A stretch of DNA of 40,578 bases from Bordetella parapertussis (GCA_945864585.1 CAMBCF010000040.1:1-40578), one strand, 5' to 3'. Numbered from the stretch's first letter, positions 3,276 through 18,961 are shown. Translations and numbers: made by a program. The notes: generated by a model not told the origin, from the letters alone.

Positions 3276-4148
3276 TTACAAACTGATTGCTCGGCCCGCA
3301 TCCATAAGGTGTCCCGGCGAAAGGTGTGAGTAGCGCTCCGTGACCGCAACCGTTGAGTGACCGGCTAACTTTTGCACCGTTCTCAAGGGCACGCCGGCCA
3401 TAACCATGTGCGAGATATAGGTGTGACGTAGCGTGTGCAGGCTGCCGTCAAGCTTGGCTCGGCGGATGTCATGTATGCAAGCGCGTGATAGAGACGCGGG
3501 AGCCATTCTCGGAATGACGTGCTCGCCGACTTTCGGCAATCTCTCCAGCGCGATCTTTGCACCATTGGTAATGGGAATCTCACGCCACTTTCCTGATTTC
3601 GTGCGCTCTTCGTCGGTGGAGAGGATCTTCATCGCTTCTTGTCCGATCCATGCCCGTTTGAGCATCAATCCTTCCCCACGTCTCATGCCCGTGTTGGCGT
3701 AGAGTCGCCAGATCGCTGCGTGAACCGGGTTAGGCTGAGGGCCTTCGCCTGCGTTTACTTTCGCATTGCATGCGGCGTAGATCGCATCAAGTTCTACCTT
3801 CGTGAAGAAAAGCGGTGGCTTCGAATCCAGTGACAGGGGCGCGGAGACGTGGGGTATAGGATGCTCGCGGATGCTCTTCCATTCCACAGCCTTCGCCAGG
3901 ATCGCCTTGAGTGTGCGCAGTTCCTTGGCGACGGTTTCGGCCTTGGGCCGGTTCTCGCTGGGGGCCATGCGGCGGTGCTTCCATGCGTCCACCTGGCGCG
4001 GATCGCAATTGAGGTATTCGATGATGCGTTCGATGGCGTTACGCGTGGGCGGAATAACCGGAAGGCCATCCGTCCAGTTTTGCGCATAGCAGTAATCGAC
4101 TGCGGCTTCGAGATCGGCTGCATCGTAAATGTGGGAAGCGAGAAGCAT
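3276..4148 (-). CDS. tyrosine-recombinase integrase remnant fused to the start of another gene
   Basis: The frame encodes 290 residues from the ATG at 4148 (AAAGGA is correctly spaced upstream); the open extension further upstream overlaps the phosphodiesterase gene and is not credible. Residues ~65 to the end form the catalytic domain of phage-type integrases: Arg in TGMRRGE (~156), Lys in TKSGKWREIP (~184), HTLRH (His238, Arg241), His in AGHST (264) and Tyr nucleophile in TERYSHL (273). The first ~53 residues are not integrase. They contain ADLEAAVDYCYAQ and WTDGLPVIPPT, resembling the conserved start of a family of uncharacterised soluble proteins. The N-terminal arm-binding domain and part of the core-binding domain are missing, so activity is doubtful. 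The gene points towards tRNA-Glu. Confidence 0.85.
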   Translation of the reverse strand: MLLASHIYDAADLEAAVDYCYAQNWTDGLPVIPPTRNAIERIIEYLNCDPRQVDAWKHRRMAPSENRPKAETVAKELRTLKAILAKAVEWKSIREHPIPHVSAPLSLDSKPPLFFTKVELDAIYAACNAKVNAGEGPQPNPVHAAIWRLYANTGMRRGEGLMLKRAWIGQEAMKILSTDEERTKSGKWREIPITNGAKIALERLPKVGEHVIPRMAPASLSRACIHDIRRAKLDGSLHTLRHTYISHMVMAGVPLRTVQKLAGHSTVAVTERYSHLSPGHLMDAGRAISL

Positions 4149-4245
4149 TAGAATTCCTTTAAAATCAATAGCTTTAAAGCGGTCACGCGTATTCAAGTAT
4201 GCGGCAATTGCGCCTTGCCAGTGAGCCGCCACGCCACACTCAGGC

Positions 4246-5514
4246 TCAGGGCTGGAGCGGGCGGCCATCCATCCCTGCGGCAGGCTGACCCAAGTGATGA
4301 AAGATAGTGGGCGCGATGTCGACGATGGCGGTCGGCCCCGCATGCACAGCGGGGCGAAATGCCGTGCCGTTGGCGATCAGGAAAGGCGCCTGCTCGTATG
4401 CGCCGAATCCGCCATGCTGCCCCATTCCGACATTGTGCGGTGTGGGCTCGAAGCGAGTGGCTATGTCCGAGAGTCCGGCGATACCGTGGACGTTAGGGTC
4501 TGCGTGCTTCGCCATCGACAGCGCGATGCGCAGGCCGTGTTCGGGCTTCATGCCGGCACGTTCGAGTTCGACGTCAACCAGCACTTCGCCGGCCCAAGGC
4601 TGACAGCGCAGAAAATCGGCAACCTGTGCAACGCGTCCTGCCGCCTCTTCGGCGAAGTAGATCAGGGCCGAGGTGCCCTGCGGCGCAACGACGACGTCGT
4701 CGGACTCGCGCACGCGCTTGAGCCCCGCTTCGAACAGCAGACGTTCCACCGGCACGGTCTCGCGTATGGTTTCGTGGCCGTGATCAGAGCCGACGAGAAG
4801 CAGTAAGTCCTCGCCGCCACCGCGTAGTTTGTAGATGAGGTCGGATACCGCGCCGACGCAGCGGTCGGCTGCGCTCATCACGGCAAGATGCTCGACCGAA
4901 CCGAGTACCGTTTCATGCTGTGTGTGATCGGGTTCGCACAGCCACAGCACCGCAAGCGCCGGACGTCGCTCGACCAGCACCTCGGCGCAGAACCGTTCGG
5001 TCATCGCCCAGTCCCCCGCGGCGTCGTGCGAGATGGCGAGATGGTCGGCCTCTGGCACGGGCTTGCGACCCGGGCCGCGCGAACCCGCCCGATGGTAGAC
5101 ATACCCGTGCCCGTCGGGGTCTTGAAAATAGGCCGCGCCCGGTGAGACGTTGGAGAACACAATGACGCCGCCATGGCCGCTTAGACGTTCAGCCGCCGTG
5201 GGCACGCGCAGCGTCCTGCCGGTCGAACTGCGCAGCTGCTCCACGAACGCGGCCTCACCAACGTTGTGCACGGCGTATCCGCTTGCGGTGGGGAGCGCCA
5301 TGGTGTTGCCATGCAGCCCGTGCCGCGCCGGGTGGCACCCGGTCGCGATCGACGCCGAGGACGAGCGCGTCACCGAGGGAAACACGCTTCGGTGCTGGTC
5401 GAACCAGAGGCTTTTCTGCCGCAGCTCCCAGATGCGGGGTGTGCGTTGCCGCGACACCAGATCGCGGCGCATGCCGTCGCAAATGACCAGGACAGCGCGT
5501 CGAGTTGTGGGCAT
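4246..5514 (-). CDS. type I phosphodiesterase / nucleotide pyrophosphatase family hydrolase
   Basis: A 422-residue protein of the alkaline phosphatase superfamily. All expected two-zinc ligands are visible: Asp13 in VICDGMR, nucleophile Thr49 in FPSVTRSSSAS, Asp196 and His200 in EPDHTQH, Asp244-His245 in GSDHGH, and His367 in GQHGGFG. There is no signal peptide, so it should act in the cytoplasm, hydrolysing a phospho- or phosphonate ester; phosphonoacetate-hydrolase-like activity is possible but not shown. The ATG at 5514 has GGGAG upstream. It starts 20 bp after the stop of the TctC gene at 5535-6521 and is probably co-transcribed with it, so that binding protein may capture its substrate or product. 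Confidence 0.88.
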   Translation of the reverse strand: MPTTRRAVLVICDGMRRDLVSRQRTPRIWELRQKSLWFDQHRSVFPSVTRSSSASIATGCHPARHGLHGNTMALPTASGYAVHNVGEAAFVEQLRSSTGRTLRVPTAAERLSGHGGVIVFSNVSPGAAYFQDPDGHGYVYHRAGSRGPGRKPVPEADHLAISHDAAGDWAMTERFCAEVLVERRPALAVLWLCEPDHTQHETVLGSVEHLAVMSAADRCVGAVSDLIYKLRGGGEDLLLLVGSDHGHETIRETVPVERLLFEAGLKRVRESDDVVVAPQGTSALIYFAEEAAGRVAQVADFLRCQPWAGEVLVDVELERAGMKPEHGLRIALSMAKHADPNVHGIAGLSDIATRFEPTPHNVGMGQHGGFGAYEQAPFLIANGTAFRPAVHAGPTAIVDIAPTIFHHLGQPAAGMDGRPLQP

Positions 5515-6670: not shown

Positions 6671-7636
6671 TTACTCTTCACGCATACCCGAAGTGGAGAT
6701 GACTTTACCCAGGCTGTCTATTTCGGATTTCACCGCAGCGGCCAGCCGCCCCGGCGTGCTGCCAACGACCTCAATCCCGGCATTCATGAATTTTTCTTTA
6801 ACGTGCGTTTTGCCCAAGGCTCGCACCACATCCTGATTCAGCTTGGCCGCAAGCGCTGGCGGTGTTTTTACTGGCGCAAACAGGCCAAAAATGATGATCG
6901 ACACGTATCCCGGTACGCCGGAAGCAGCTACGGTTGGCAACCCCGGCAATAGGTCCGATGGTTGTGCGCTGGTTACCGCAATCGCCCGCAAGCGTCCGGA
7001 TTTCACGTGAGGCAATATAGGCGCCGGTGCAGAAAACATGACTTGAGCCTGCCCGCCTATCAGTCCGGTAACCGCAGGCGCAACACCGCGATAAGTGATA
7101 CGCACGATGTTGACTTTCGTCATCGATTTGAACAGCTCTGCCGCAACGTGCGTAGAGCCGCCTGTGGCGGATGACGCATAATTCAATTCGCCGGGTTTGG
7201 CTCGCGCAAGGGCTATCAGTTCGCGAATGGCTTTCACCGGCAATGACGGATGCACCAGCACCACATCAGGCGAACTTGCCGCGAGTGTAATCGGCGCGAA
7301 ATCATTCACCGGGTCGTAAGGCACATTCTTGCGGAAAAGTGGCAGCAGCCACATTGGGTTGCCGTACAAAATCAGCGTATAGCCGTCAGGCGGTGACTTG
7401 GCTACAGCTTCCGCGGCAATTGCGCCGCTGGCGCCACCACGATTGTCCACGATGACCTGCAGCCCCCAGTCAGTTGTCAGTTCTTGCGCAATCACGCGCG
7501 AAACGAAATCACTGCCGCTGCCGGCCTCGGTGGTAACTATGCGCACGGGCTTGGCGGGAAAGGTTTGCCCCTGAGCGGCCCCTGCTCCCATTGCTGCTAT
7601 CGTGAGCAGGCAAAGCCTATTGATCAACGTTCGCAT
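6671..7636 (-). CDS. Bug/TctC-family periplasmic binding protein (copy 3)
   Basis: A 321-residue secreted protein; ATG at 7636 is preferred (GGGAG six bases upstream, signal peptide MRTLINRLCLL to AAQGQ). Its first loop is divergent: IVTTEAGSGSDF replaces the common VPFxxGGxxD, and the fourth-loop motif is TYRGVAPAVTGL instead of PYKGxGPA. The remaining landmarks (SGAIAAEAVAKSPPDGYT, HPSLPVKAIRELIALAR, GRLRAIAVTSAQ) are normal. It begins 26 bp after the TctC gene at 7663, giving a tandem pair at the distal end of the lyase operon. By eye it is less GC-rich than the flanking genes. Confidence 0.93.
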   Translation of the reverse strand: MRTLINRLCLLTIAAMGAGAAQGQTFPAKPVRIVTTEAGSGSDFVSRVIAQELTTDWGLQVIVDNRGGASGAIAAEAVAKSPPDGYTLILYGNPMWLLPLFRKNVPYDPVNDFAPITLAASSPDVVLVHPSLPVKAIRELIALARAKPGELNYASSATGGSTHVAAELFKSMTKVNIVRITYRGVAPAVTGLIGGQAQVMFSAPAPILPHVKSGRLRAIAVTSAQPSDLLPGLPTVAASGVPGYVSIIIFGLFAPVKTPPALAAKLNQDVVRALGKTHVKEKFMNAGIEVVGSTPGRLAAAVKSEIDSLGKVISTSGMREE

Positions 7637-7662
7637 GCACTCTCCCGCATTTGATGTTCTCC

Positions 7663-8673
7663 CTAATCCACCCTGATGCCGGTTACACGAATGACTTTTG
7701 CCCACTTGGCAAGATCGGCTCTGATCACCTCGGAAAACTCGGCAGGCGTACTGCTGGCGGGTGTTGCACCTTGCGCGGCAAACCGCCGCTGAACGTCCGG
7801 GTTTTGCAGCACGCTTGTTATGGAGGCGCTGATTTTCCGGATGACTGCCGTAGGTGTGCCGGACGGTGTTAAAACACCGGCCCAGCCGCTGGCTTCGTAA
7901 CCAGGCACACCGCTTTCCGCGATGGTAGGCACATTGGGTAATTCAGCGACACGCTTTGCACTGCCTATGGCCAGTGCTTTCAGCTCACCGCTTTTAACAT
8001 GCCCCAGCACGCTGGGTAGCGTGGCAAACATCAAGCGGATGTGCCCGCCCAGCAAATCAGTGACTGCAAAGCCGGCGCTCTTGTAGGGGATGTGTGTCAA
8101 TTCAACACCGGTGCTGGACTTGAACAATTCAGCGGCCAAATGGCTGGGTGTACCGTTGCCCGACGACGCATAGTTGAGTAAGCCGGGCTGTTTGCGTGAA
8201 AGGGTGATCAGTTCCTGCACAGAGGAAACGCGCGCCGACGAATGCGCGACCAGTATCAGCGGATAAAGCGAGGCCAGTGTCACCGGTGCGAAATCCTTTA
8301 CGGGATTGTACGGCAGCGACTTGTGCAGTCCTGCGGTCATAACAAAGCTGCTCGACACCATCGCCCAGGTGTAGCCATCAGCGGGCGCTTTGGCCGCCAG
8401 ATCGGTGCCAACGATACCACCCGCGCCGGCACGATTGTCGACAACGATCTGCTGTCCCCATAGAGGTCCGAGTTGTTGCGCGATCACGCGCGCCACCAGA
8501 TCGGGGCCGCCGCCTGGCGCGAACGCGACGATTATGCGCACCGGTCTGACGGGATAGGCGGGTGTGTCTGCCGCGTGCGCGCTCAGCGCAGCCACCGCCG
8601 TAAACAGGGCAATGGCTGTGCATGAGAATTTTCTCATTCCTTCTGTTTGTGGGTCATGCTGTGTTTCGCACAT
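7663..8673 (-). CDS. Bug/TctC-family periplasmic binding protein (copy 4)
   Basis: 336 residues from the ATG at 8673, which follows the MmgE/PrpD stop codon by 4 bp and has GAGG eight bases upstream. The ATG at 8637 (MRKFSCTAIALF) would give a more typical signal peptide, but its AAGGA abuts the start codon. The signal peptide ends near ALSAHA. Landmarks are VAFAPGGGPDLVAR, GAGGIVGTDLAAKAPADGYT, IPYKSAGFAVTDLLGG and LPNVPTIAESGVPGYE. The tight junction with the MmgE/PrpD gene suggests its ligand belongs to the same pathway as the lyase and MmgE/PrpD protein upstream. Confidence 0.93.
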   Translation of the reverse strand: MCETQHDPQTEGMRKFSCTAIALFTAVAALSAHAADTPAYPVRPVRIIVAFAPGGGPDLVARVIAQQLGPLWGQQIVVDNRAGAGGIVGTDLAAKAPADGYTWAMVSSSFVMTAGLHKSLPYNPVKDFAPVTLASLYPLILVAHSSARVSSVQELITLSRKQPGLLNYASSGNGTPSHLAAELFKSSTGVELTHIPYKSAGFAVTDLLGGHIRLMFATLPSVLGHVKSGELKALAIGSAKRVAELPNVPTIAESGVPGYEASGWAGVLTPSGTPTAVIRKISASITSVLQNPDVQRRFAAQGATPASSTPAEFSEVIRADLAKWAKVIRVTGIRVD

Positions 8674-8677
8674 GGCT

Positions 8678-10102
8678 TTAACCTCGTGTCTGTCTGGCAA
8701 GCAGCTTTACGAATTCAAATATGTCCGGCTCGCGTTCCAGATGTGCAACGCGCCGAATTATTTTTTCGGCATTGCCGTTTCCGCTGAACCCGGTGGCTTG
8801 AGACAAGAATTTTTCCTCCACGTGATGCCAGGTCATGGGGTTATGTGGATCGCCCAGGGGATAGGCTACCTGATGAAAAAATTTCCCGCGCGAGGTGGTG
8901 ATTTCAAGCGCCGCCGGGCGCGCGCCTTGTCTGAACAAGGCTGTCAATCGCGCATCGGCTGCCAGTGTTGTCTTGCGGATCAATGCGTGAATTTCTTTAT
9001 TATTCAAATATTTAGGTGAAAACTGCTTGAAGGTGACTGCACCCGCAACCAGCGCCACCGCGACGCAGTAATGAAAGCTGTGATCCGCGGTCTCTTTGCT
9101 GTCGGGCACGAGTTTTTGTGTATCCCAACTGGGCTTTGTTACCGCTTCCTCATGAGCGAAGATGCGTATGCGCTGAACTTCTTCAGGGCGAATGCGGTGT
9201 TTCTCGCGCAGCACCAGCGCCGCTTCAACCATGGCGGGTGTCATGCCTTCAACCGGGTAGGGCTTCAAGCCGACTTTCAGAATGCGATAGTCGCCTGCCC
9301 GCGGCACCAGCGGCCCGACATCCACACCGCCTGCGACAGCGTGTTTGAAACCATAGGGACCTTCCAGCAGTGTCAGGCAGCCGGTGAAGCCCTGTTTTGC
9401 GAGTTGTGAATAAAACACCGCCATGCTTGCAACCATCGGCGCCGACAAGGCTTTATCGTAAGGAATCTTGCCGTGCCGGATTTCCGAAAATGTGTTGGCG
9501 CGCGCGCCCGCGAGTGCGATCGCGTTAGCGCACTGCGCTGCATTTAGTTTCATCAGACGTGCCACACCTGCAGCGCTGGCATAGGAACAAGCGGCCGTGT
9601 GATGCCAGCCGCGATGCCACAGATTGCGCGCTACCGGCAAATCGGAAAAACGCATTTGCACTTCATAGGCTGCAATCATTGCCGTGAGCAAATCCTTGCC
9701 GCTGGCGTGATGCGCTTCGGCAACGGCCAGCAGTGTGGCGAGATTGTCGCTCGGGTGCGCCGTCCACGCCGGGCCAAAGTAAACGTCGTTGTAATCCTGA
9801 TAACGAATGGCTACCCCGTTGGCCAGCGCGGCGTGCTGTACGGTGGCGCGGGTTTTCGTGCCGATAACGGTTGCGTCACTGCATTTACCATTGGCAGCCA
9901 CCGTCCGGCGCACCATGCGTGCCGGCGCGCTATCGAGCCCGCCGTAGAGGCATGCCAGACTGTCGAGGAAGATCCGCTTCGCGTAATCAATGACGGCTGG
10001 CGGCAGTTTTGCGTAACGCAATTCACACACATATTGCGCAATTTGTTCGATAATCGTGGGCGTGCTGCCAGCGCCCTTCGATAGCCTTGTCGCGGCCGCC
10101 AT
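8678..10102 (-). CDS. MmgE/PrpD family protein (dehydratase/epimerase fold), coupled to the lyase gene
   Basis: A 474-residue cytoplasmic protein of the MmgE/PrpD family, which includes 2-methylcitrate dehydratase, cis-aconitate decarboxylase and iminodisuccinate epimerase. Recognisable blocks are FLDSLACLYGG near the start, NGVAIRYQDYNDVY and HPSDNLATLLAVAE in the first third, LKPYPVEGMTPAMVEAAL in the middle and the conserved ADHSFHYCVAVAL about residue 335. Its ATG overlaps the stop of the lyase gene as TAATG, a sign of translational coupling. With a C-N lyase directly upstream, an epimerase acting on an N-substituted amino diacid is more attractive than methylcitrate dehydration; this is inference from family and context. 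Confidence 0.92.
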   Translation of the reverse strand: MAAATRLSKGAGSTPTIIEQIAQYVCELRYAKLPPAVIDYAKRIFLDSLACLYGGLDSAPARMVRRTVAANGKCSDATVIGTKTRATVQHAALANGVAIRYQDYNDVYFGPAWTAHPSDNLATLLAVAEAHHASGKDLLTAMIAAYEVQMRFSDLPVARNLWHRGWHHTAACSYASAAGVARLMKLNAAQCANAIALAGARANTFSEIRHGKIPYDKALSAPMVASMAVFYSQLAKQGFTGCLTLLEGPYGFKHAVAGGVDVGPLVPRAGDYRILKVGLKPYPVEGMTPAMVEAALVLREKHRIRPEEVQRIRIFAHEEAVTKPSWDTQKLVPDSKETADHSFHYCVAVALVAGAVTFKQFSPKYLNNKEIHALIRKTTLAADARLTALFRQGARPAALEITTSRGKFFHQVAYPLGDPHNPMTWHHVEEKFLSQATGFSGNGNAEKIIRRVAHLEREPDIFEFVKLLARQTRG

Positions 10103-11628
10103 TATGCTTTTGTCAGCAAGGCTGCGCGCCGCACAAGGTTCTGCTGCGCATCACCCACTTTCTGCAGTCGTTGTGTTACTTCGCGCAGCCATTTTGCGTT
10201 ATCGCGATAACGGCTTGCAATCATGCGCCTGACTTCCCTGGGCGCGGGGCCGCCGAGCCCCTGGCGTGATTGCACAAAGCCTGCTGGATCGAGTGCTGCT
10301 TTAATCGCTGCTGCTGTCAGATTGATATCGCGCCCGGTAATCTCGCGCGAGGCTTCATTGAGCAGGGCCGGCGTCACATCGCGATAGCTGAGTTTGCGTT
10401 CTGCCGCCATGCGCACCAGCCGTCCGACGATGTGATGCGCCGTGCGGAACGAGAGTCCGTGCTGCACCATGGTATCCGCCAGCGTTACCGCTGTGGTAAA
10501 GCCGTCACCCGCAGTTTCAAACATGCGATCCTTTTTGAGAATCAGGGTGCGGATGATCGGTGTCAACAGTTCCACCATGTCCGCGACGCGGTTCAGTGAA
10601 TTGTCGCCGATGCGCGGGCCGGTGAGCTTGATGTCAAAGGCCGTGCCGCCGGTATCGCCGCGCAACACTTCAAGAATGGCGCCGAATGCCGAAGTAACCT
10701 CGCCGGAACGCGCGCGGATCATTTCCAGCGAATACGGGTTTTTTTTCTGCGGCATGATGCTGCTGCTGGCTGCGAATGCTCCATCGAGCTCGATCAGCGA
10801 GAACTCATTGCTGCACCAGATGTAAAAATCAATCGCCACGCGGGCGACGTTGCTCATCAATATGGCAGAGGCCGCCATTGCTTCCGGGAACCAGTCGTAG
10901 TTATGCGCGGCATCCTTGGTATTTTCAACCACGCGGCTGAAGCCCAGCAAATCGGCAACGCGCTTGCGGTCGAGCGGCCACGAGGTGCCGGACGACGCAG
11001 CTGCACCCAGCGGCGATTCGTTGGTGGTGTCGAAGGCGTTCAGCAGCCGCTTCAGATCGCGCGTGAGCACGTCGTAAAAGGCGATCAGGTAATGGCCAAA
11101 GGTGGTGACCTGTGCGGGCTGCAGATGCGTATAAGCGGGCATCACCACATCTACAGAAGCCGCGGCCTTGCGCAATAGTTCTTCGCGCAGCGCCATCACG
11201 CGCGGGATCAGGCGCATCAGGTTCTTGCGCAATTTCAGCCGCATCAGCGCGGCAATCAAATCGATGCGGCTGCGGCCGATGTGCATCTTGCCACCGCGCT
11301 CGTCGCCGGCGTGGGCGATTACGTACGCTTCAACATTAAAAAAAAGATCCCCCTTTTTGGCATCAAATTTGAGCCTGTTGACATCGCGCATCAAGCTTTG
11401 CAACGGTTTGAGTATGCTTGCCGCCTCGCGCCGCGTGATGATGCGCTGTTCGTGCAGCATGATGGTATGTGCCATGTTGCAGCGGGCCATCACCAGAATA
11501 TTTTCTTCGTCGATATCGGCGTATGGCGTCCATACGTAATCGAGCATCTCGCGCGCCTGTGCCTTGCCCAGCCTGGCTTTGGAAACTTCCGCGAATCCGC
11601 GTGCGCCACTGGTCTTTTTTTGTGCCAT
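10102..11628 (-). CDS. argininosuccinate-lyase-like C-N lyase (fumarase/aspartase superfamily)
   Basis: 508 residues from the ATG at 11628 (AGAGG five bases upstream; an ATG eight codons earlier has no ribosome site). Superfamily regions are clear: GRSRIDLIA (~118), YTHLQPAQ (~166), LGAAASSGTSWPLDR (~207) and the flexible catalytic loop SSSIMPQKKNP (~288-298), which carries the serine base. It would eliminate an amine from a succinyl-type substrate, releasing fumarate. It is longer than ordinary argininosuccinate lyase (about 460), and the usual GRSRND reads GRSRID, losing the Asn that contacts the fumarate part in that enzyme. No other arginine gene is nearby, so a biosynthetic ArgH is unlikely. 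A lyase for iminodisuccinate/EDDS-like compounds is the best guess. Confidence 0.9.
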   Translation of the reverse strand: MAQKKTSGARGFAEVSKARLGKAQAREMLDYVWTPYADIDEENILVMARCNMAHTIMLHEQRIITRREAASILKPLQSLMRDVNRLKFDAKKGDLFFNVEAYVIAHAGDERGGKMHIGRSRIDLIAALMRLKLRKNLMRLIPRVMALREELLRKAAASVDVVMPAYTHLQPAQVTTFGHYLIAFYDVLTRDLKRLLNAFDTTNESPLGAAASSGTSWPLDRKRVADLLGFSRVVENTKDAAHNYDWFPEAMAASAILMSNVARVAIDFYIWCSNEFSLIELDGAFAASSSIMPQKKNPYSLEMIRARSGEVTSAFGAILEVLRGDTGGTAFDIKLTGPRIGDNSLNRVADMVELLTPIIRTLILKKDRMFETAGDGFTTAVTLADTMVQHGLSFRTAHHIVGRLVRMAAERKLSYRDVTPALLNEASREITGRDINLTAAAIKAALDPAGFVQSRQGLGGPAPREVRRMIASRYRDNAKWLREVTQRLQKVGDAQQNLVRRAALLTKA

Positions 11629-11683
11629 ACGCGCCTCTTTAAAAATGTTCATAAATCAATAGGTTGAGATTGTTTTGTGGGTG

Positions 11684-12676
11684 CTAATCGGGTTTGATAC
11701 CCGCCGCCGCCAACACCCGGCGCCAACGCTCAACCTCGGCGCGCAGCCACGCGGCAAGTTCGGCAGGTGTCGAGCCGATCGCTTCGGCGCCTTGTGCCTC
11801 CAGCGCTTTTTGCAATTCCGGCGCTTTCAGTGCGGCACGAAAATCCTCGGCGAGTTTTGCAATCACCGGTGCCGGCGTTTTTGCAGGTGCAAATACGGCA
11901 AACCAGCCGCTCGCATCAAAGCCCGCATAGCCCGATTCGGCAATGGTCGGTAGCCCCGGAAGTGCAGCGGAACGCTTGCCGCTGGTGACTGCGAGCGCGC
12001 GCAGGCGATTCGCTTTGATCTGCGATAGCGCTGCAATTAAATTGGTAATCGAAGTTTCTACTTTACCTGATACCAGTGCCGTAACGGCAGGGCCGGCGCC
12101 CTTGTAGGGTATATGCACAATGTTCACGTTGGCGGCCTGCTTGAACATTTCCATCGCCAGATGGCCCGTGCCGCCGTTGCCGCTGGATGAATAATTGATG
12201 CCGCCGGGGCGTGATTTGGCTAACGCCGCAAACTCTTTTACGTTTTTTGCCGGAATCGAAGGATGCACCAGCAGCACGTTGGCGGCGGTGCCCAGCAGTG
12301 TGATGGGCTCAAAGCTGCGCACCGGATCGAAGGGCAACTTGCGAACCAGCGTAGCGTTGACTGCGTGCGTTCCAGTGGTGATCAAAAGGGTGTAACCGTC
12401 CGCCGGGGCGCGTGCCGCCAGTTCCGTGCCGATGACGGTACCCGCACCCGCGCGGTTGTCAATTACCAGCGCGTGCCCCCAGCGCTCGTATAGCTTGGCC
12501 GCTACCTGGCGCGCGATAATGTCAGTGCCGCCGCCGGGTGGGTAGGGTACGATGGCACGCACCACCGCATTGGGAAATGGCGTGGGTTCGGGTTTGCCGG
12601 GATCAGCGGCAAAGGCGATACCCGCTGATAAAGCGCTTGCCAGTAGTGGAATGCTAAATTTTTGGCGGATGATCAT
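11684..12676 (-). CDS. Bug/TctC-family periplasmic binding protein (copy 5)
   Basis: 330 residues from the ATG at 12676; an in-frame GTG at 12709 lies inside the upstream gene and neither has a strong ribosome site, so the start is uncertain and translation may depend on the MmgE/PrpD gene that ends 10 bp earlier. The signal peptide ends near AGIAFA. The ligand loops are VPYPPGGGTDIIAR and IPYKGAGPAVTALVSG; GAGTVIGTELAARAPADGYT and LPGLPTIAESGYAGFD are also present. It sits between the MmgE/PrpD gene (12687-14045) and the lyase (10102-11628) with short gaps, within one minus-strand run. Confidence 0.93.
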   Translation of the reverse strand: MIIRQKFSIPLLASALSAGIAFAADPGKPEPTPFPNAVVRAIVPYPPGGGTDIIARQVAAKLYERWGHALVIDNRAGAGTVIGTELAARAPADGYTLLITTGTHAVNATLVRKLPFDPVRSFEPITLLGTAANVLLVHPSIPAKNVKEFAALAKSRPGGINYSSSGNGGTGHLAMEMFKQAANVNIVHIPYKGAGPAVTALVSGKVETSITNLIAALSQIKANRLRALAVTSGKRSAALPGLPTIAESGYAGFDASGWFAVFAPAKTPAPVIAKLAEDFRAALKAPELQKALEAQGAEAIGSTPAELAAWLRAEVERWRRVLAAAGIKPD

Positions 12677-12686
12677 TGGTGATGTG

Positions 12687-14045
12687 CTAACGCTGCGTCG
12701 TTGCCGCACAAACAGCCACCACCAGCGGACTCACATCGGCTGCAGATTCAATTTGCGCTACTACGTCGATCAGCCGTTGCGCGCTGGCACGAGGCACACC
12801 AACTTCTTCGCACAATTGATTAGTCATGGCGGTTGCCGCTACCCACGTGACTCGGTAATTTGAGTCACCCGCCTGTTCCGCCCAGTCGAGTTGGCGACCG
12901 TCGGCAAGCCGCACCTGCATAAACGGCTCGTAGAGTTTGCGTGTTTCATCCGCGGTGATCTTTATGCGCGGAACCAGCGCGTTCACGGCCGCATCGTCAA
13001 AGCGGCGCAGGCCGTCGAAGCTGGCCGTGCCGGTAGACCACGCCAGCGCGGCGCAAAATGGCGCACTCATGACCGTTTGTGCCGCAGTAGCGAACGGGCC
13101 GCTAAATCTCACACCAATGAAGTTGGCCTCATAGGGGTGCATTTGAATGTCCATGCTGTGCACGGTCGATCCCTTGGCCTGCTCACGCAATGCAGCTAGT
13201 CCGCGAATAATGCCGCGCAAAAATTGGCACGCCGGGTACTGTTTGTAAGTGACTGATTTAAATTCGAAGTCTTCGCCGAGCTTTTCAATCAGGCGATGGC
13301 CGTAATCCACGTTTTCCTTGCCAAAGGCACGATAAAAGCCTGCACCGCCGTGCAGCGCATTGGGCGTGGCCTGTAGCCCGCACGCCGCGAGATCCACGAC
13401 ATACACACCGTTGCGTGCGGCAAACCCTGCCTGAAATGGCGACTCCTCGGTGCCCGCATCCACGTATTCGCGCAGGCCACCGGCAAAATTGGCAGCAAGC
13501 CCGATGGCATTACGCATAGTGACTGCGTCAAAGCCGCGTATACGTCCGCTAGCGACCGTTGCACCAAACACGCCATACGAAGGCGTAGTGCGAAAGCCGC
13601 GCAGGCTCAGATCTGCTGCGTGATCGCGGCCGATGCGCAATGCCGATTCGTAACCTGCAACGAGGCCTGACAGCAGCGTGGCGCCCGTGGCATTTTCAGT
13701 TTCGGCGGCAGCAAGCGCTGAAGGGATGACCACGCCGCCGATATGTCCGCACGGGTGCGAGTCGCCCTGCACCCGCCCTGATAGCAGGACTGCATTGGCA
13801 AAGGCTGCGCTGCCTTGCGATGTGCGTGCGCCATCGATCAGTCGTGTGGTTGCGCCCGATTCGCGTTTGCGGTCGGCCGCATCCCATGCGAGCTTTGCGG
13901 GACGCGCGCGCCGCGTGCCGATGCCGACGGCGAGGCCGTACAACAAACACGCTTTCGCGTTCTCAAGCAAAGTGGCAGGTAGCGAGCGTGCTTCAAAGAA
14001 CGCCAGGAATTGCGCAAATGCTGTGATGTCACTCGCACCGCTCAC
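12687..14045 (-). CDS. MmgE/PrpD family protein, second and divergent copy
   Basis: A 452-residue cytoplasmic protein starting at a GTG with GAGG eight bases upstream. Family blocks are FANAVLLSGRVQGDSHPCGHIGG (where DSHPCGH stands in place of the active-site Asp-His region), LSGLVAGYESALRIG, FRTTPSYGVFGA and YKQYPACQFLRGII. It lacks the exact ADHSFHYCVA block of its neighbour at 8678-10102 and aligns poorly with it by eye, so the two probably have different substrates. It is the first gene of the minus-strand run and diverges from hyuB across 142 bp. Confidence 0.88.
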   Translation of the reverse strand: MSGASDITAFAQFLAFFEARSLPATLLENAKACLLYGLAVGIGTRRARPAKLAWDAADRKRESGATTRLIDGARTSQGSAAFANAVLLSGRVQGDSHPCGHIGGVVIPSALAAAETENATGATLLSGLVAGYESALRIGRDHAADLSLRGFRTTPSYGVFGATVASGRIRGFDAVTMRNAIGLAANFAGGLREYVDAGTEESPFQAGFAARNGVYVVDLAACGLQATPNALHGGAGFYRAFGKENVDYGHRLIEKLGEDFEFKSVTYKQYPACQFLRGIIRGLAALREQAKGSTVHSMDIQMHPYEANFIGVRFSGPFATAAQTVMSAPFCAALAWSTGTASFDGLRRFDDAAVNALVPRIKITADETRKLYEPFMQVRLADGRQLDWAEQAGDSNYRVTWVAATAMTNQLCEEVGVPRASAQRLIDVVAQIESAADVSPLVVAVCAATTQR

Positions 14046-14187
14046 GCGCCGTACCTCGCTCTAGTGGATTGCATTATGGAATAGGAAACTGCGCCGGGAA
14101 GATGATGTGGTAGTCTAATTGCAGCATACCAAAAACCAATAAATTTATGTATTTGACTCGTTTGTAGTGGGGCTGGGCTATTCACAT
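14046..14187. promoter_or_regulatory. divergent intergenic region between MmgE/PrpD and hyuB
   Basis: This AT-richer gap separates two divergent runs and must hold promoters for both. TTGACT at 14153-14158 is a possible -35 for the plus strand, but no good -10 follows at the right distance. No convincing operator palindrome was found and no regulator gene flanks it. Confidence 0.35.
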
Positions 14188-15891
14188 ATGGACTCATCGA
14201 TGAAACGCGGCGTGCGAGCACGCGCGCGCAGCAGAATTGCAATGGATCCGGTATCGCTGGAAATTCTGTGGAGCCGCCTGATTGCGATTTCGGAAGAGCA
14301 GGCGGCGATGGTGCTGCGTACGGCATTTTCGAGCATCGTGCGCGAGTCGTATGACTTCACTTGCGTGCTGCTGACGCCTGCGGGCGATTTGCTCGCACAG
14401 CCCTTTCAGTCGCTGCCGGGCTTTACGCGCTGTGCGTCCACCGTAATGAAACATTTCCTGTCGCGCTGGCCGGACTGGCATCCAGACGACGTAGCGATGA
14501 CCAATGACCCGTGGCTTGCGGCCGGGCATTTGAATGATGTGGCTATAGCGGTGCCGGTTTTTCATCGCGGAAAAATTGTCGCGTTCTCCGCCAACATTGC
14601 CCATCAGGCCGACATCGGTGGACGTGGGTATTCAGCAGACGGCGCCAGCATTTTCGAGGAAGGTCTGGCGTTGCCGCCGATGAAGCTCTACCAGGCCGGC
14701 AAGGTAGTACCGGAGGTTCTGCAGATTCTGGCTGAGAACGTGCGGCTGCCCGATCAGGTGCTGGGTGACATCCACGCGCAGGTGGGCGCGGCAAGATTGG
14801 GTGCGCGGCGAGTAAGCGAACTGCTGGATGAAGCGGGTCTCGACAACCTCGATGGCATTGCTGCCGAGGTGCTGTCGCGCTCGGAGTCGGCGATGCGTTC
14901 CGCGCTGCGCCGGGTGCGTGACGGCGTGTATACCAATGTCGGCATCATGGATGGCTTCGACGAGCCGCTGACCATTGCGTTGAAGCTCACGATTAAAGGC
15001 GAGAAACTCGAATTCGATTTCACCGGCACTTCGGCACAGATCAATAAGGGCATTAACAGTTGTTACAACTATACCTACGGCTACGCGGCTTTCGCAGCGA
15101 AAGCGGTTCTGGAACCGCTGATACCCAACAACGAAGGTGCCTACCGGCCGATCACGCTAAAAGTGCCTGAAGGTACGTTGCTGAATTCGACGCGCCCTGC
15201 GCCGGGTAACAGCCGTGGCCGTGTCGGACATATGATCGTGCCGGTGGTGTTTGGTGCGTTGGCCAAGGCGCTTCCTGACGTGGTTCCCGCCGAATCGGGC
15301 AGTCCCGCGCCACGCGTGAATTTCTTTGGCGATCGTGAAGACGGCAGCGCATTTCAGTGCATGCTGATTACCAGTGGCGGTCTCGGTGCATCGCTTACGC
15401 GCGACGGTCTTGCCGGAAAATCGTTTCCCACAAATACCAAGATGGCTTCGCTGGAGATTATGGAAAGCCAGTCGCCGATACGCTTTCTGCGGCGCGAGCT
15501 GGTGACGGATTCCGGCGGTGCGGGGCGGCATCGCGGTGGCATGGCGCAGGAAATCGTGGCACAGGTGCTGGGGCGCAAAAGCATTTACGTATCAACCAGT
15601 TCCGAGCGCATCAAAAATCCGCCGCGCGGCTATCGCGGCGGCTTGCACGGTGCGGGGGCGGTGTTGAGCCGCAACAACGGTGAGTATCTCGCGCCGAAAG
15701 GCCGCACCTTGCTCAAAGCGGGCGATATCGTGACTGTGCGCACGCCAGGTGGCGGCGGCTTGGGGACGCCGGGCGCACGCGATAAGGCAGCGATAGAACA
15801 CGACCTGCGGCAGGGTTATGTCAGCGCGTCAGGTGCGCGCAAAGATTACGCGGTATCCGGCAAGCGCGGCTCGCCAAAGGTGCGCTCATGA
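14188..15891 (+). CDS. hyuB: hydantoinase B / oxoprolinase family subunit
   Basis: The B subunit of an ATP-dependent cyclic-amide hydrolase (N-methylhydantoinase/5-oxoprolinase type; acetone carboxylase subunits are relatives). About 567 residues from the ATG at 14188; other in-frame starts at 14167 (GTG), 14200 and 14242 are possible because none has a clear ribosome site, and the family usually begins near MDPVSLEILWSRL. Conserved stretches are FTRCASTVMKHF, DVAMTNDPWLAAGHLNDVAI, SANIAHQADIGG, ELVTDSGGAGRHRGGM and, near the end, VTVRTPGGGGLG. Its stop overlaps the hyuA start (ATGA), typical of a paired complex. Confidence 0.92.
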   Translation: MDSSMKRGVRARARSRIAMDPVSLEILWSRLIAISEEQAAMVLRTAFSSIVRESYDFTCVLLTPAGDLLAQPFQSLPGFTRCASTVMKHFLSRWPDWHPDDVAMTNDPWLAAGHLNDVAIAVPVFHRGKIVAFSANIAHQADIGGRGYSADGASIFEEGLALPPMKLYQAGKVVPEVLQILAENVRLPDQVLGDIHAQVGAARLGARRVSELLDEAGLDNLDGIAAEVLSRSESAMRSALRRVRDGVYTNVGIMDGFDEPLTIALKLTIKGEKLEFDFTGTSAQINKGINSCYNYTYGYAAFAAKAVLEPLIPNNEGAYRPITLKVPEGTLLNSTRPAPGNSRGRVGHMIVPVVFGALAKALPDVVPAESGSPAPRVNFFGDREDGSAFQCMLITSGGLGASLTRDGLAGKSFPTNTKMASLEIMESQSPIRFLRRELVTDSGGAGRHRGGMAQEIVAQVLGRKSIYVSTSSERIKNPPRGYRGGLHGAGAVLSRNNGEYLAPKGRTLLKAGDIVTVRTPGGGGLGTPGARDKAAIEHDLRQGYVSASGARKDYAVSGKRGSPKVRS

Positions 15892-17969
15892 AAAGTGCAC
15901 GCTTCAGACTCGGCGTGGATGTCGGTGGCACCTTCACCGACTTCGTGTTGATCAATGAGGGCACCGGCGAATTGTTTCGCGAAAAATGCCTGACCACACC
16001 CGAAGACCCGGTGATCGGCATCATGAACGGCATTGCACGGTTGCAGGCTGCAGGTATCGTCAAGGCGGAAGAGATCATAGGCGTTGCGCACGCCACCACG
16101 CTGGTCGCCAATACGCTGATTGAACGCAAAGGCGCCCAAACGGGGTTGTTGGCCACGGAAGGCTTTCGCGACATTATTGAACTGGGCAGCGACATGCGTT
16201 ACGACATGTACGATCTTGCGATTGAGTTTCCTGAGCCGCTGGTGGAACGTGCGCAGCGCCTCGGTGTACGCGAGCGTATGGCGGCCAGCGGTGAGTCACT
16301 TATTTTGCCCGCAGCGGCCGATGTGCGGCGGCAGGTGCGGGCACTGCTGGCGCGGGGTGTTGAATCCATAGCCGTGTGTTTCCTGCACAGCTATCGTAAC
16401 GCGTTGCATGAGCAACAGGTTTTAAAGCAGATACACAGGGAATTCCCGCGCGTCGCGGTTTCGATATCGTCGGTGGTCGCACCCGAAATACGCGAATATG
16501 AACGCACGGTCACGGTGATCGCCAACGCCTACGTGCAGGCGGTGGTGCGCTCGTACCTGGAGCGATTCGAAAAAACCATGGCTGCGGCACGGGTGAAGGC
16601 GCCCATATTGGTGATGCTATCCAACGGCGGCATGACCACGCCCAGGGTAGCGGCAGAGGTGCCGATACGTTTGATCGAATCGGGACCGGCGGCTGGTGTG
16701 TTGTCCGCGTGTCACGCCGGCGCGCGCATCGGCGAGCCCAATCTGCTGGCGTTCGACATGGGCGGCACCACCGCCAAAGCGTGTTTTATCGGGAGCGGCA
16801 AACCCGCGTTCACGGGCCAGTTTGAGGCGGCGCGCGTGAAGCGCCAGTTTCGCGGTTCCGGCATGCCGTTGAAAGTGCCGTCGGTTGAGATGATCGAAAT
16901 CGGTGCGGGCGGCGGCTCGATCGCGCGGCTGGATGGCACGGGCTTGCTCAAGGTGGGGCCGGATTCCTCGGGGGCTGTTCCGGGGCCGGCCTGCTACGGA
17001 CGCGGTGGCATCGCGCCCACCGTGACAGACGCTGACCTGGCGCTGGGCTATCTCGATCCGGGCTATTTTTTGGGCGGCGACATGACCTTAAATCTCGCGG
17101 CCGCAAAGGCCGCCTTGCAGGCGTTGGGTAAACGCTGCGGTCTGGATGCCACAGCCACCGCAGCGGGCATTGCACAAGTCGTGAATCAGAACATGGCGAC
17201 CGCGATACGCATCCATGCGGCGGAGCGCGGCAAAGACTATCGCCGTTCCAGTCTGTTTGCGTTTGGCGGTGCGGGGCCGGTGCATGCGTACGAGATCGCA
17301 CGCATACTGCGCATCCCGCGCATAATTTGTCCGCTGGGCGCGGGTACCAATTCCGCGTTCGGGTTGCTGGCGGCGCCGGTGGCGGTGGATTTGTCGCGCT
17401 CGTATAACGTAGCGCTGCATGACATCGACTGGGCGCGGCTCAATGCGTTGTATCGCGACATGGAGGAGGAAGCTCGCCGCATGCTGGCGGATGCCGGTGT
17501 GAAATCGCCGCTGCTGGTGCGCTCGGCAGACGTGCGGTTTGTAGGGCAGGGGTTTGAACTGCCGGCGAAAGTGTCCAGCGGCAAGCTGGCGCCACGTTCC
17601 ATGCAGCGCATTGAGGCGTCGTTTCACGAGGTCTATAAGTCCGTTTACGAAGAAGTACCCGGTAGCTTGCCGGTCGAAGCGATCACCTGGCGGTTGCGCG
17701 CATCGGGGCCAGAGCCGGTTGTATCAGCATCCTTTGGTGTAACGCAAAAGGTGCGCAAGGCACGTGCGCCGCGCCGGGCGTTTTTTCCGGAGCTGAAAAA
17801 ATTTGTTGAAACGCCGGTGTACGAGCGCTCCGCCCTGAAAGCATCGACCAGGCTTCGCGGACCGGCCATTGTGGAAGAACGCGAATCGACGGCGGTGATT
17901 GGCCCGCATGGACGTGTGCGCGTCGACCGCGATTTGAACCTGATCATCGATATTGCCAATACGAAATAG
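15888..17969 (+). CDS. hyuA: hydantoinase A / oxoprolinase family subunit
   Basis: The ATP-binding A subunit of the same complex, 693 residues. The N-terminal domain has RLGVDVGGTFTDFV, THATTLVANTLIERKG-like spacing (seen as AHATTLVANTLIERKG), and the hydantoinase core contains FDMGGTTAKACFI (~288), IGAGGGSIARLD and FGGAGPVHAYEIAR (~460). This actin-like ATPase fold phosphorylates or activates the ring amide for the B subunit. Spacing of 38 bp to the following lyase gene suggests one transcript. Whether the substrate is a hydantoin, oxoproline-like lactam or another cyclic or keto compound cannot be told. Confidence 0.93.
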   Translation: MKSARFRLGVDVGGTFTDFVLINEGTGELFREKCLTTPEDPVIGIMNGIARLQAAGIVKAEEIIGVAHATTLVANTLIERKGAQTGLLATEGFRDIIELGSDMRYDMYDLAIEFPEPLVERAQRLGVRERMAASGESLILPAAADVRRQVRALLARGVESIAVCFLHSYRNALHEQQVLKQIHREFPRVAVSISSVVAPEIREYERTVTVIANAYVQAVVRSYLERFEKTMAAARVKAPILVMLSNGGMTTPRVAAEVPIRLIESGPAAGVLSACHAGARIGEPNLLAFDMGGTTAKACFIGSGKPAFTGQFEAARVKRQFRGSGMPLKVPSVEMIEIGAGGGSIARLDGTGLLKVGPDSSGAVPGPACYGRGGIAPTVTDADLALGYLDPGYFLGGDMTLNLAAAKAALQALGKRCGLDATATAAGIAQVVNQNMATAIRIHAAERGKDYRRSSLFAFGGAGPVHAYEIARILRIPRIICPLGAGTNSAFGLLAAPVAVDLSRSYNVALHDIDWARLNALYRDMEEEARRMLADAGVKSPLLVRSADVRFVGQGFELPAKVSSGKLAPRSMQRIEASFHEVYKSVYEEVPGSLPVEAITWRLRASGPEPVVSASFGVTQKVRKARAPRRAFFPELKKFVETPVYERSALKASTRLRGPAIVEERESTAVIGPHGRVRVDRDLNLIIDIANTK

Positions 17970-18007
17970 TTACGCAACCCCAACCTTCAACAAACGAGGT
18001 ACTCAGC

Positions 18008-18961
18008 ATGGATCCCGCCAAACGATTACGCCAACTGATGAATGCGCCCGGCCCGATACTCGCGCCCGGCGTCTATGATTGCATTTCCGCCAAGGTAGTT
18101 GAACGTGCCGGCTACGATGCCGCATTTGTCAGTGGCGCCGCAGTTACGGCCAGTGTGCTGGGCTATCCAGACGTGGGCTTGCAAACCATGCCGGAGATTC
18201 TGGCGCAGGTACGCAATATGGCACGCGCGGTGGAGATTCCGCTGATTGTCGATATCGATACCGGCTATGGCAATGCGCTGAACATGATGCGTGCGATCCG
18301 CGAGTTTGAGGCTGCCGGCGCTGCGGGAGTGTTCTTTGAGGATCAGGGCTTTCCCAAGCGCTGCGGGCATTTTGAGGGCAAAAAGCTGATTACGGATCTG
18401 GAGATGGCTGTCAAAGTGCGCGCCGCGTGCGAGGCGCGCCGCTCGTCCGATTTTCTGATTATTGCGAGAACGGATGCGCGTGCCGTTGAGGGGCTGGATC
18501 GTGCCCTCGAGCGTGGTCAGGCGTACGTGGAAGCTGGCGCGGATGCGATTTTCGTCGAAGCCTTGTTGAGCGAAGACGAAATGCGCAAAGCAGCGGCCGC
18601 AATCAAGGCGCCGCTGCAGGCGAACATGAGCGAAGGCGGGGGCAAGACGCCGATCGTTCACTATCAACAGTTGTATGAAATCGGCTTCAAGATTATTTCC
18701 TACAGCGGGCTATTACAGCGCACGGCAGTGAAGGGCATGCAGAATGCGCTCGCTGTACTGCGCAAGGAGGGCAGTGCGGAGTCGCTGTATCCCGACCACC
18801 TGTGCAGCCTGGTTGACCGTAGTGCATTGCTGGGGCTGGAAAAATTCTACAAACTCGAAGAGCGGCTGTACGGGCCGCTGCTCGATACAGAAAAAAGCTG
18901 GCGCGGCCAGCTGCAAGCGCAGGCGAAAGATGCCGGCGCTAATGACCGGTTGCCTTTTTAA
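18008..18961 (+). CDS. isocitrate lyase / PEP mutase superfamily C-C lyase
   Basis: A 317-residue cytoplasmic TIM-barrel protein, GAGG eight bases before its ATG. Mg-binding acids are visible at VDIDTGYGN (Asp82, Asp84) and FEDQG (Glu111, Asp112). The motif KRCGH (117-121) carries the catalytic cysteine of true lyases; PEP mutases lack it, so cleavage of a 2-methylmalate-, methylisocitrate- or dimethylmalate-type acid is more likely than P-C chemistry. The C-terminal ~50 residues form an extension after the barrel. It lies between hyuA and a TctC gene in one plus-strand run and could cleave an acid released by the hydantoinase step. Confidence 0.9.
   Translation: MDPAKRLRQLMNAPGPILAPGVYDCISAKVVERAGYDAAFVSGAAVTASVLGYPDVGLQTMPEILAQVRNMARAVEIPLIVDIDTGYGNALNMMRAIREFEAAGAAGVFFEDQGFPKRCGHFEGKKLITDLEMAVKVRAACEARRSSDFLIIARTDARAVEGLDRALERGQAYVEAGADAIFVEALLSEDEMRKAAAAIKAPLQANMSEGGGKTPIVHYQQLYEIGFKIISYSGLLQRTAVKGMQNALAVLRKEGSAESLYPDHLCSLVDRSALLGLEKFYKLEERLYGPLLDTEKSWRGQLQAQAKDAGANDRLPF

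Follow-up and report, generated by a model that had tools for sequence, protein, structure and literature searches.

What does an enzyme with the fold of argininosuccinate lyase (ASL) do at a locus without arginine genes? The question arises from a 40,578-nucleotide stretch of Bordetella parapertussis DNA (GCA_945864585.1, CAMBCF010000040.1:1-40578; hereafter, the window), in which the minus strand from 11628 to 10102 encodes an uninterrupted 508-residue protein of this fold; the reading frame is closed on the plus strand over the same interval. A sequence-only reading had taken the protein for a C-N lyase that is not ArgH and that cleaves, after epimerization by an adjoining MmgE/PrpD enzyme, an N-substituted aspartate of the iminodisuccinate or ethylenediaminedisuccinate (EDDS) type into fumarate and an amine. 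Our comparisons support well its distinctness from biosynthetic ArgH, and the enzyme probably breaks down a scavenged polycarboxylate. More specifically, we think it reasonably probable that it is a catabolic lyase of the ASL branch of the fumarase/aspartase superfamily, belonging to a clade (here called SRID) apart from both ArgH and EDDS lyase, and acting by beta-elimination on an imported N-succinyl or S-succinyl compound.

The lyase and its relation to ArgH and EDDS lyase

The gene and its two diagnostic motifs are located as follows.

10102..11628, minus strand: ASL-fold lyase of the SRID clade, 508 residues (translation, domains, tree and model)
11260..11277, minus strand: codons of GRSRID, residues 118-123 (coordinates calculated from residue numbers)
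10735..10764, minus strand: catalytic loop SSIMPQKKNP, residues 289-298 (coordinates calculated from residue numbers)

Translation gave the motifs GRSRID, AYTHLQ and SSIMPQKKNP. An in-frame ATG further upstream, at 11652, would extend the lyase to 516 residues; the 508-residue start is favoured because the N-termini of orthologues match that position. The seven other close orthologues share 68-73% identity with the window lyase and all come from one GTDB family. GRSRID, in place of GRSRND, is kept in 8/8 close orthologues and is therefore no sequencing accident. The protein is longer than ArgH (457 residues in E. coli, 469 for the ArgH of the same genome), and its stop codon overlaps by one base, as TAATG, the ATG of an MmgE/PrpD gene at 8678-10102. 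The sequence-only reading, which did not name the strand, was accurate on the fold, the catalytic loop, GRSRID, the length and the TAATG junction, as it was on the lack of arginine genes, none of which was found among the window open reading frames (ORFs) scanned.

The lyase carries the Pfam domains Lyase_1 and ASL_C2. Its best sequence matches in the PDB were EDDS lyase (2.5e-73) and then Thermus ArgH (7.9e-69), and the top Foldseek matches of an AlphaFold2 model (24 window/locus sequences; mean predicted local distance difference test score 90) came in the same order, EDDS lyase first and ArgH second. In the alignment, S120, R121, T167, H168, S290, K295 and N297 are kept in 8/8 close orthologues and correspond to the catalytic set of ArgH and EDDS lyase. 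By its domains, its fold and its catalytic serine loop with Lys and Asn, the protein is a member of the superfamily.

A maximum-likelihood tree of 53 sequences placed the SRID group (20 rows) and the ArgH group (8 rows) on separate branches, each supported at 100/100. The approximately unbiased (AU) test rejected a common clade of the window orthologues and ArgH (p-AU 1.4e-5). Phylogenetic placement, the check that the earlier reading had proposed, thus revealed no clustering with biosynthetic ArgH. The signature residues agree with this: N110, D287, Y317 and Q322 of E. coli ArgH, identical in 8/8 ArgHs compared, are I122, Y299, T329 and K334 in 8/8 orthologues. The exact correspondence of T329 and K334 is less certain, as the site lies at a model loop of low confidence (residues 326-333), and we therefore placed weight mainly on I122 and on Y299, which directly follows the catalytic loop where ArgH and EDDS lyase carry Asp. 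A canonical ArgH is encoded elsewhere in the same genome (contig C9; ARSRND, KKNPD, 469 residues). The genome also holds a third, divergent ASL-family gene near a TctC gene (contig C193, 1893-3227, seen in L003/L141; GRSRQD, 484 residues).

We regard it as very improbable that the window lyase is a true, if diverged, argininosuccinate lyase serving arginine supply. It has the fold and the catalytic Ser, His, Lys and Asn of ArgH and exceeds the cut-off of the NCBIfam argH model TIGR00838 (363.4 versus 279.5 bits), so that its formal label is ArgH; this model may also catch non-ArgH relatives, and because they pass it such paralogues carry the argH label in public records. However, the ArgH-specific pocket residues are gone in all orthologues, the AU test separates the two clades, a canonical ArgH exists in the same genome, and the lyase is longer and sits in an uptake-linked neighbourhood. 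Its spread is also patchy, with close orthologues in 8 of 74 family genomes and none in other genomes of the genus.

EDDS lyase of Chelativorans (PDB 6G3D, 6RX8) is the closest solved structure by both sequence and fold, at about 37% identity, and shares with the window lyase the catalytic loop, a similar length and adjoining uptake genes. We located the authentic gene (L129) in Chelativorans multitrophicus DSM 9103, where the product is identical over 438 residues to the structure sequence; this genome also has a canonical ArgH and three SRID-clade genes. The specific kinship with EDDS lyase that had been supposed was not supported. In the tree, EDDS lyase sided with ArgH (23-row set, 100/96); the AU test rejected placing it in one clade with the window orthologues (p-AU 8e-4), and we discarded orthology to EDDS lyase. 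Residues R112, N113, Q159, N288, D290 and Y320 of EDDS lyase lie 4-6 Å from the bound substrate (PMC12363623), and the window lyase departs from EDDS lyase at four of the six (N113 to I122, Q159 to H168, D290 to Y299, Y320 to T329). Thus I122 occupies the substrate-site position held by Asn in EDDS lyase (N113) and in E. coli ArgH (N110). The EDDS lyase locus itself contains genes for an FAD oxidoreductase, an aldehyde dehydrogenase, a GNAT protein and peptide-type ATP-binding cassette (ABC) transport; neither MmgE/PrpD nor TctC was recognised among the ORFs listed there.

Uptake genes and the proposed reaction

Directly upstream of the lyase lies a gene of a type that recurs beside members of the clade.

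11684..12709, minus strand: TctC/Bug solute-binding protein

TctC adjoins the lyase in six of the seven evaluable orthologues (the window, L005, L007, L008, L009 and L010; not L006, with L011 not assessable). The clade as a whole spans Proteobacteria and Bacillota, and the association with uptake genes of TctC/TTT or ABC type extends across most of it: in a rumen Clostridium the lyase is preceded by TctA and TctC, in Chelativorans it is followed by TctC-TctB-TctA, TctC follows it in three further members, and ABC uptake genes adjoin it in Roseibium and Paracoccus. Since TctC is abundant in the family of the window, we give more weight to the occurrences in Clostridia, Chelativorans and plasmids than to those in the close orthologues. 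Given this link to uptake genes, it is reasonable to see in the enzyme a catabolic lyase of C-N (or C-X) bonds.

In the reaction that we infer, the TctC-type binding protein encoded beside the lyase would deliver a polycarboxylate, for which we expect an N-succinyl compound (resembling an N-substituted aspartate) or an S-succinyl one, in either case without the arginine side chain. The flexible-loop serine S290 would abstract a proton, K295, N297, S120 and T167 would stabilise the aci-carboxylate, and beta-elimination would expel an amine, a thiol being the less likely leaving group. Fumarate would be the most likely product released. Of the cleavage originally proposed, the best reading is still that of a catabolic lyase with a succinyl adduct as its substrate; the preceding epimerization and the EDDS/iminodisuccinate specifics are not supported.

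Several observations weigh against this proposal. TIGR00838 formally labels the protein ArgH, as described above. The genome encodes at least 150 TctC genes, and TctC adjacency alone is therefore weak evidence in this bacterial family. At the signature position the clade has Ile in 17/20 and Leu in 2/20 members, and the remaining one, L015, retains Asn. With I122 the substrate site loses a residue able to form hydrogen bonds, and the product may therefore be something other than fumarate. Finally, our literature search found no assayed member of the SRID clade.

The loss of the Asn bears on one alternative, an elimination or addition that yields no fumarate. Superfamily members with other products exist, muconate cycloisomerase being an example. 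The residue that I122 replaces is one of those close to the bound substrate in EDDS lyase (PMC12363623). Nevertheless, the remaining catalytic residues are kept and the Asn-bearing L015 is placed among Ile-bearing members, and we find such a product quite improbable.

Another alternative concerns the bond that is broken. The clade may split S-(2-succino)cysteine-like thioethers to fumarate and a thiol, as does 2SL, characterised in Dickeya and Enterococcus (UniProt E0SKP1, E6LDH5). YxeQ, one of the proteins that define the yxe cluster in which this reaction is placed, is an MmgE/PrpD protein. 2SL belongs to the same superfamily as the window lyase, is found in clusters that include an uptake system and yields fumarate from N-acetyl-S-(2-succino)cysteine; in some of the yxe clusters, which are defined in part by YxeQ, it is encoded in place of YxeK (PMC9706529). 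Growth of Advenella on mercaptosuccinate is also accompanied by a raised level of a putative argininosuccinate lyase (PMC5373536). Lyases of the sister part of the SRID clade lie near M24 hydrolases and near pyridoxal phosphate-dependent enzymes of cystathionine beta-lyase type and cysteine desulfurase-like type, as well as MR/MLE enolases and an octopine dehydrogenase-type protein; these neighbours suggest catabolism of amino-acid-derived compounds, without fixing the substrate. On the other side, 2SL is described just as a generic class I lyase and our comparison with it is by description, its cluster has acetyltransferase and deacetylase genes of which none was seen beside the window lyase, and neither sulfur genes nor YxeL/YxeP-type genes stood beside the window or close-orthologue lyases among the genes checked. 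No 2SL-like reference was recognised among the plasmid neighbourhoods. Taken together, a C-S lyase appears unlikely. In Chelativorans (L131) and Paracoccus (L138), genes for an M24 hydrolase and for an enzyme of cystathionine beta-lyase type both cluster with the SRID-clade lyase.

Starting from the catabolic lyase that we favour, we tentatively suggest, as a possibility short of an expectation, that the SRID clade represents a new activity. It would be an uptake-linked lyase that degrades a natural polycarboxylate adduct for which such breakdown is not known, with a pocket rebuilt around Ile in place of Asn, and mis-annotated as argininosuccinate lyase.

The adjoining MmgE/PrpD gene

The gene joined to the lyase by the TAATG overlap encodes the presumed epimerase of the sequence-only reading.

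8678..10102, minus strand: PrpD1, MmgE/PrpD family (domain match, small tree)

The iminodisuccinate C-N lyase of Agrobacterium tumefaciens BY6 reportedly acts together with an MmgE/PrpD epimerase. By analogy, the lyase and PrpD1 could form an iminodisuccinate/EDDS-type pathway in which an N-substituted aspartate is epimerized and then cleaved to fumarate and an amine. The overlap implies co-translation, and the nearest solved enzyme is EDDS lyase. In addition, lyase and PrpD1 co-occur in 5 genomes versus about 1.8 expected (p 0.013), a count that genome size confounds.

Conservation of the pair tells against it. An MmgE/PrpD gene adjoins the lyase in 1/8 orthologues, that of the window; tblastn of the window genes found none beside the seven others on the available DNA, some of whose contigs are short. 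Conversely, PrpD1 orthologues (54-67% identity) are present in 16 other genomes of the same family, and no window-type lyase stood beside them in the regions fetched, where they often adjoin another MmgE/PrpD gene or a phosphoenolpyruvate (PEP)-mutase-family gene, as in this window. In one PrpD1 region (L169), an ASL-family match lies about 6 kb away. Moreover, about 48 MmgE/PrpD matches above the cut-off occur in this 5.0-Mb genome, so that adjacency of the two genes is weak evidence.

The sequence of PrpD1 also argues against an epimerase. PrpD1 groups with E. coli 2-methylcitrate dehydratase PrpD (96/95); given the small size and long branches of this tree, we rely chiefly on the motifs. 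PrpD1 lacks HAxDFDD, GHPS and KPxHxG of iminodisuccinate epimerase (2HP0) and has RYQDYND, AHPSDN and DKALSA instead; HAxDFDD and KPxHxG are common to this epimerase and Bacillus IRG1. The best match to the BY6 epimerase in plasmids and 395 genomes reached 39% identity, and no close relative was found among them. The epimerase half of the BY6 system is not matched by PrpD1, and our comparison with the lyase half is by description.

Genuine pairs do exist elsewhere. On plasmids of Agrobacterium sp. 33MFTa1.1 and Cereibacter sphaeroides, an MmgE/PrpD gene directly precedes an ASL paralogue of SRND type.

L100:5578-8485 and L104:5613-8482: MmgE/PrpD and SRND-type ASL paralogue

Like the window lyase, these paralogues directly adjoin an MmgE/PrpD gene. 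They differ in keeping SRND and in belonging to another clade, their union with the window lyases being rejected (p-AU 3e-4), and their MmgE/PrpD proteins, unlike PrpD1, group with iminodisuccinate epimerase and IRG1 (88/97, small tree). Around both pairs lie amino-acid ABC, asparaginase and SIS genes, with PfkB also in L100. These loci are candidates for an N-substituted-aspartate or Amadori-type pathway; for a fructose-asparagine route (asparaginase, SIS and kinase), the literature search returned no supporting paper. A row of MmgE/PrpD, GRSSGD-type lyase and TctC genes occurs in Bordetella petrii (L062:6458-10383) and in Paracandidimonas (L020:6440-10468). Both sets of loci would be better ground than this window for examining the epimerase-lyase hypothesis. 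Among ASL paralogues we also noted a large group (many of L023-L084; Chloroflexi, Actinobacteria and others) with GR[AP]RRE and DYTYLQ replacing GRSRND and GYTHLQ.

Hence, with the orthologue loci, the PrpD1 regions, the motifs and the small tree in agreement, PrpD1 was rejected as an iminodisuccinate epimerase partner. The rejected unions of the window lyase with the PrpD-paired lyases and with EDDS lyase, and the authentic EDDS lyase locus described above, point the same way. We consider an epimerase-lyase pathway at this locus improbable; on sequence evidence, PrpD1 probably works independently of the gene beside it, providing neither an epimerase step nor a working partner for the lyase.

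The wider locus and its meaning

The lyase belongs to a minus-strand run with short gaps or overlaps, comprising PrpD2, TctC, the lyase, PrpD1, TctC, two TctC-like genes and a phosphodiesterase-like gene. Its further members include the following.

12687..14045, minus strand: PrpD2, a second, highly diverged MmgE/PrpD family protein; overlaps the TctC gene
7663..8700, minus strand: TctC/Bug solute-binding protein, downstream of PrpD1
6671..7705, minus strand: TctC/Bug-like solute-binding protein, overlapping the 7663..8700 gene (type inferred from resemblance to other TctC)

Divergent from this run are genes for hydantoinase B, hydantoinase A and a PEP-mutase/isocitrate-lyase family protein (14167-18961, plus strand) and another TctC-like gene; the PEP-mutase/isocitrate-lyase type also adjoins PrpD1 orthologues in other genomes. 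A promoter and terminator scan gave no signal above chance. The ORF at 3276-4343 (minus strand) has a WTDGLPV motif in its first part followed in frame by a tyrosine recombinase (Phage_integrase), an arrangement that suggests an insertion or a join made during assembly; the WTDGLPV family also occurs near the lyase in L008 and L010. With at least 150 TctC/Bug genes and about 48 MmgE/PrpD matches in 5.0 Mb, the genome shows extreme expansion of both its uptake receptors and its MmgE/PrpD enzymes.

Identification of the substrate would name the scavenged compound and would provide a lyase with a pocket unlike that of EDDS lyase, which is already in synthetic use; otherwise, this is an ordinary case of a lyase paralogue. 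Proteins of the SRID clade pass the standard ArgH model, and public records give ASL paralogues the name argininosuccinate lyase; bacteria may therefore be assigned arginine genes that in fact serve another purpose.

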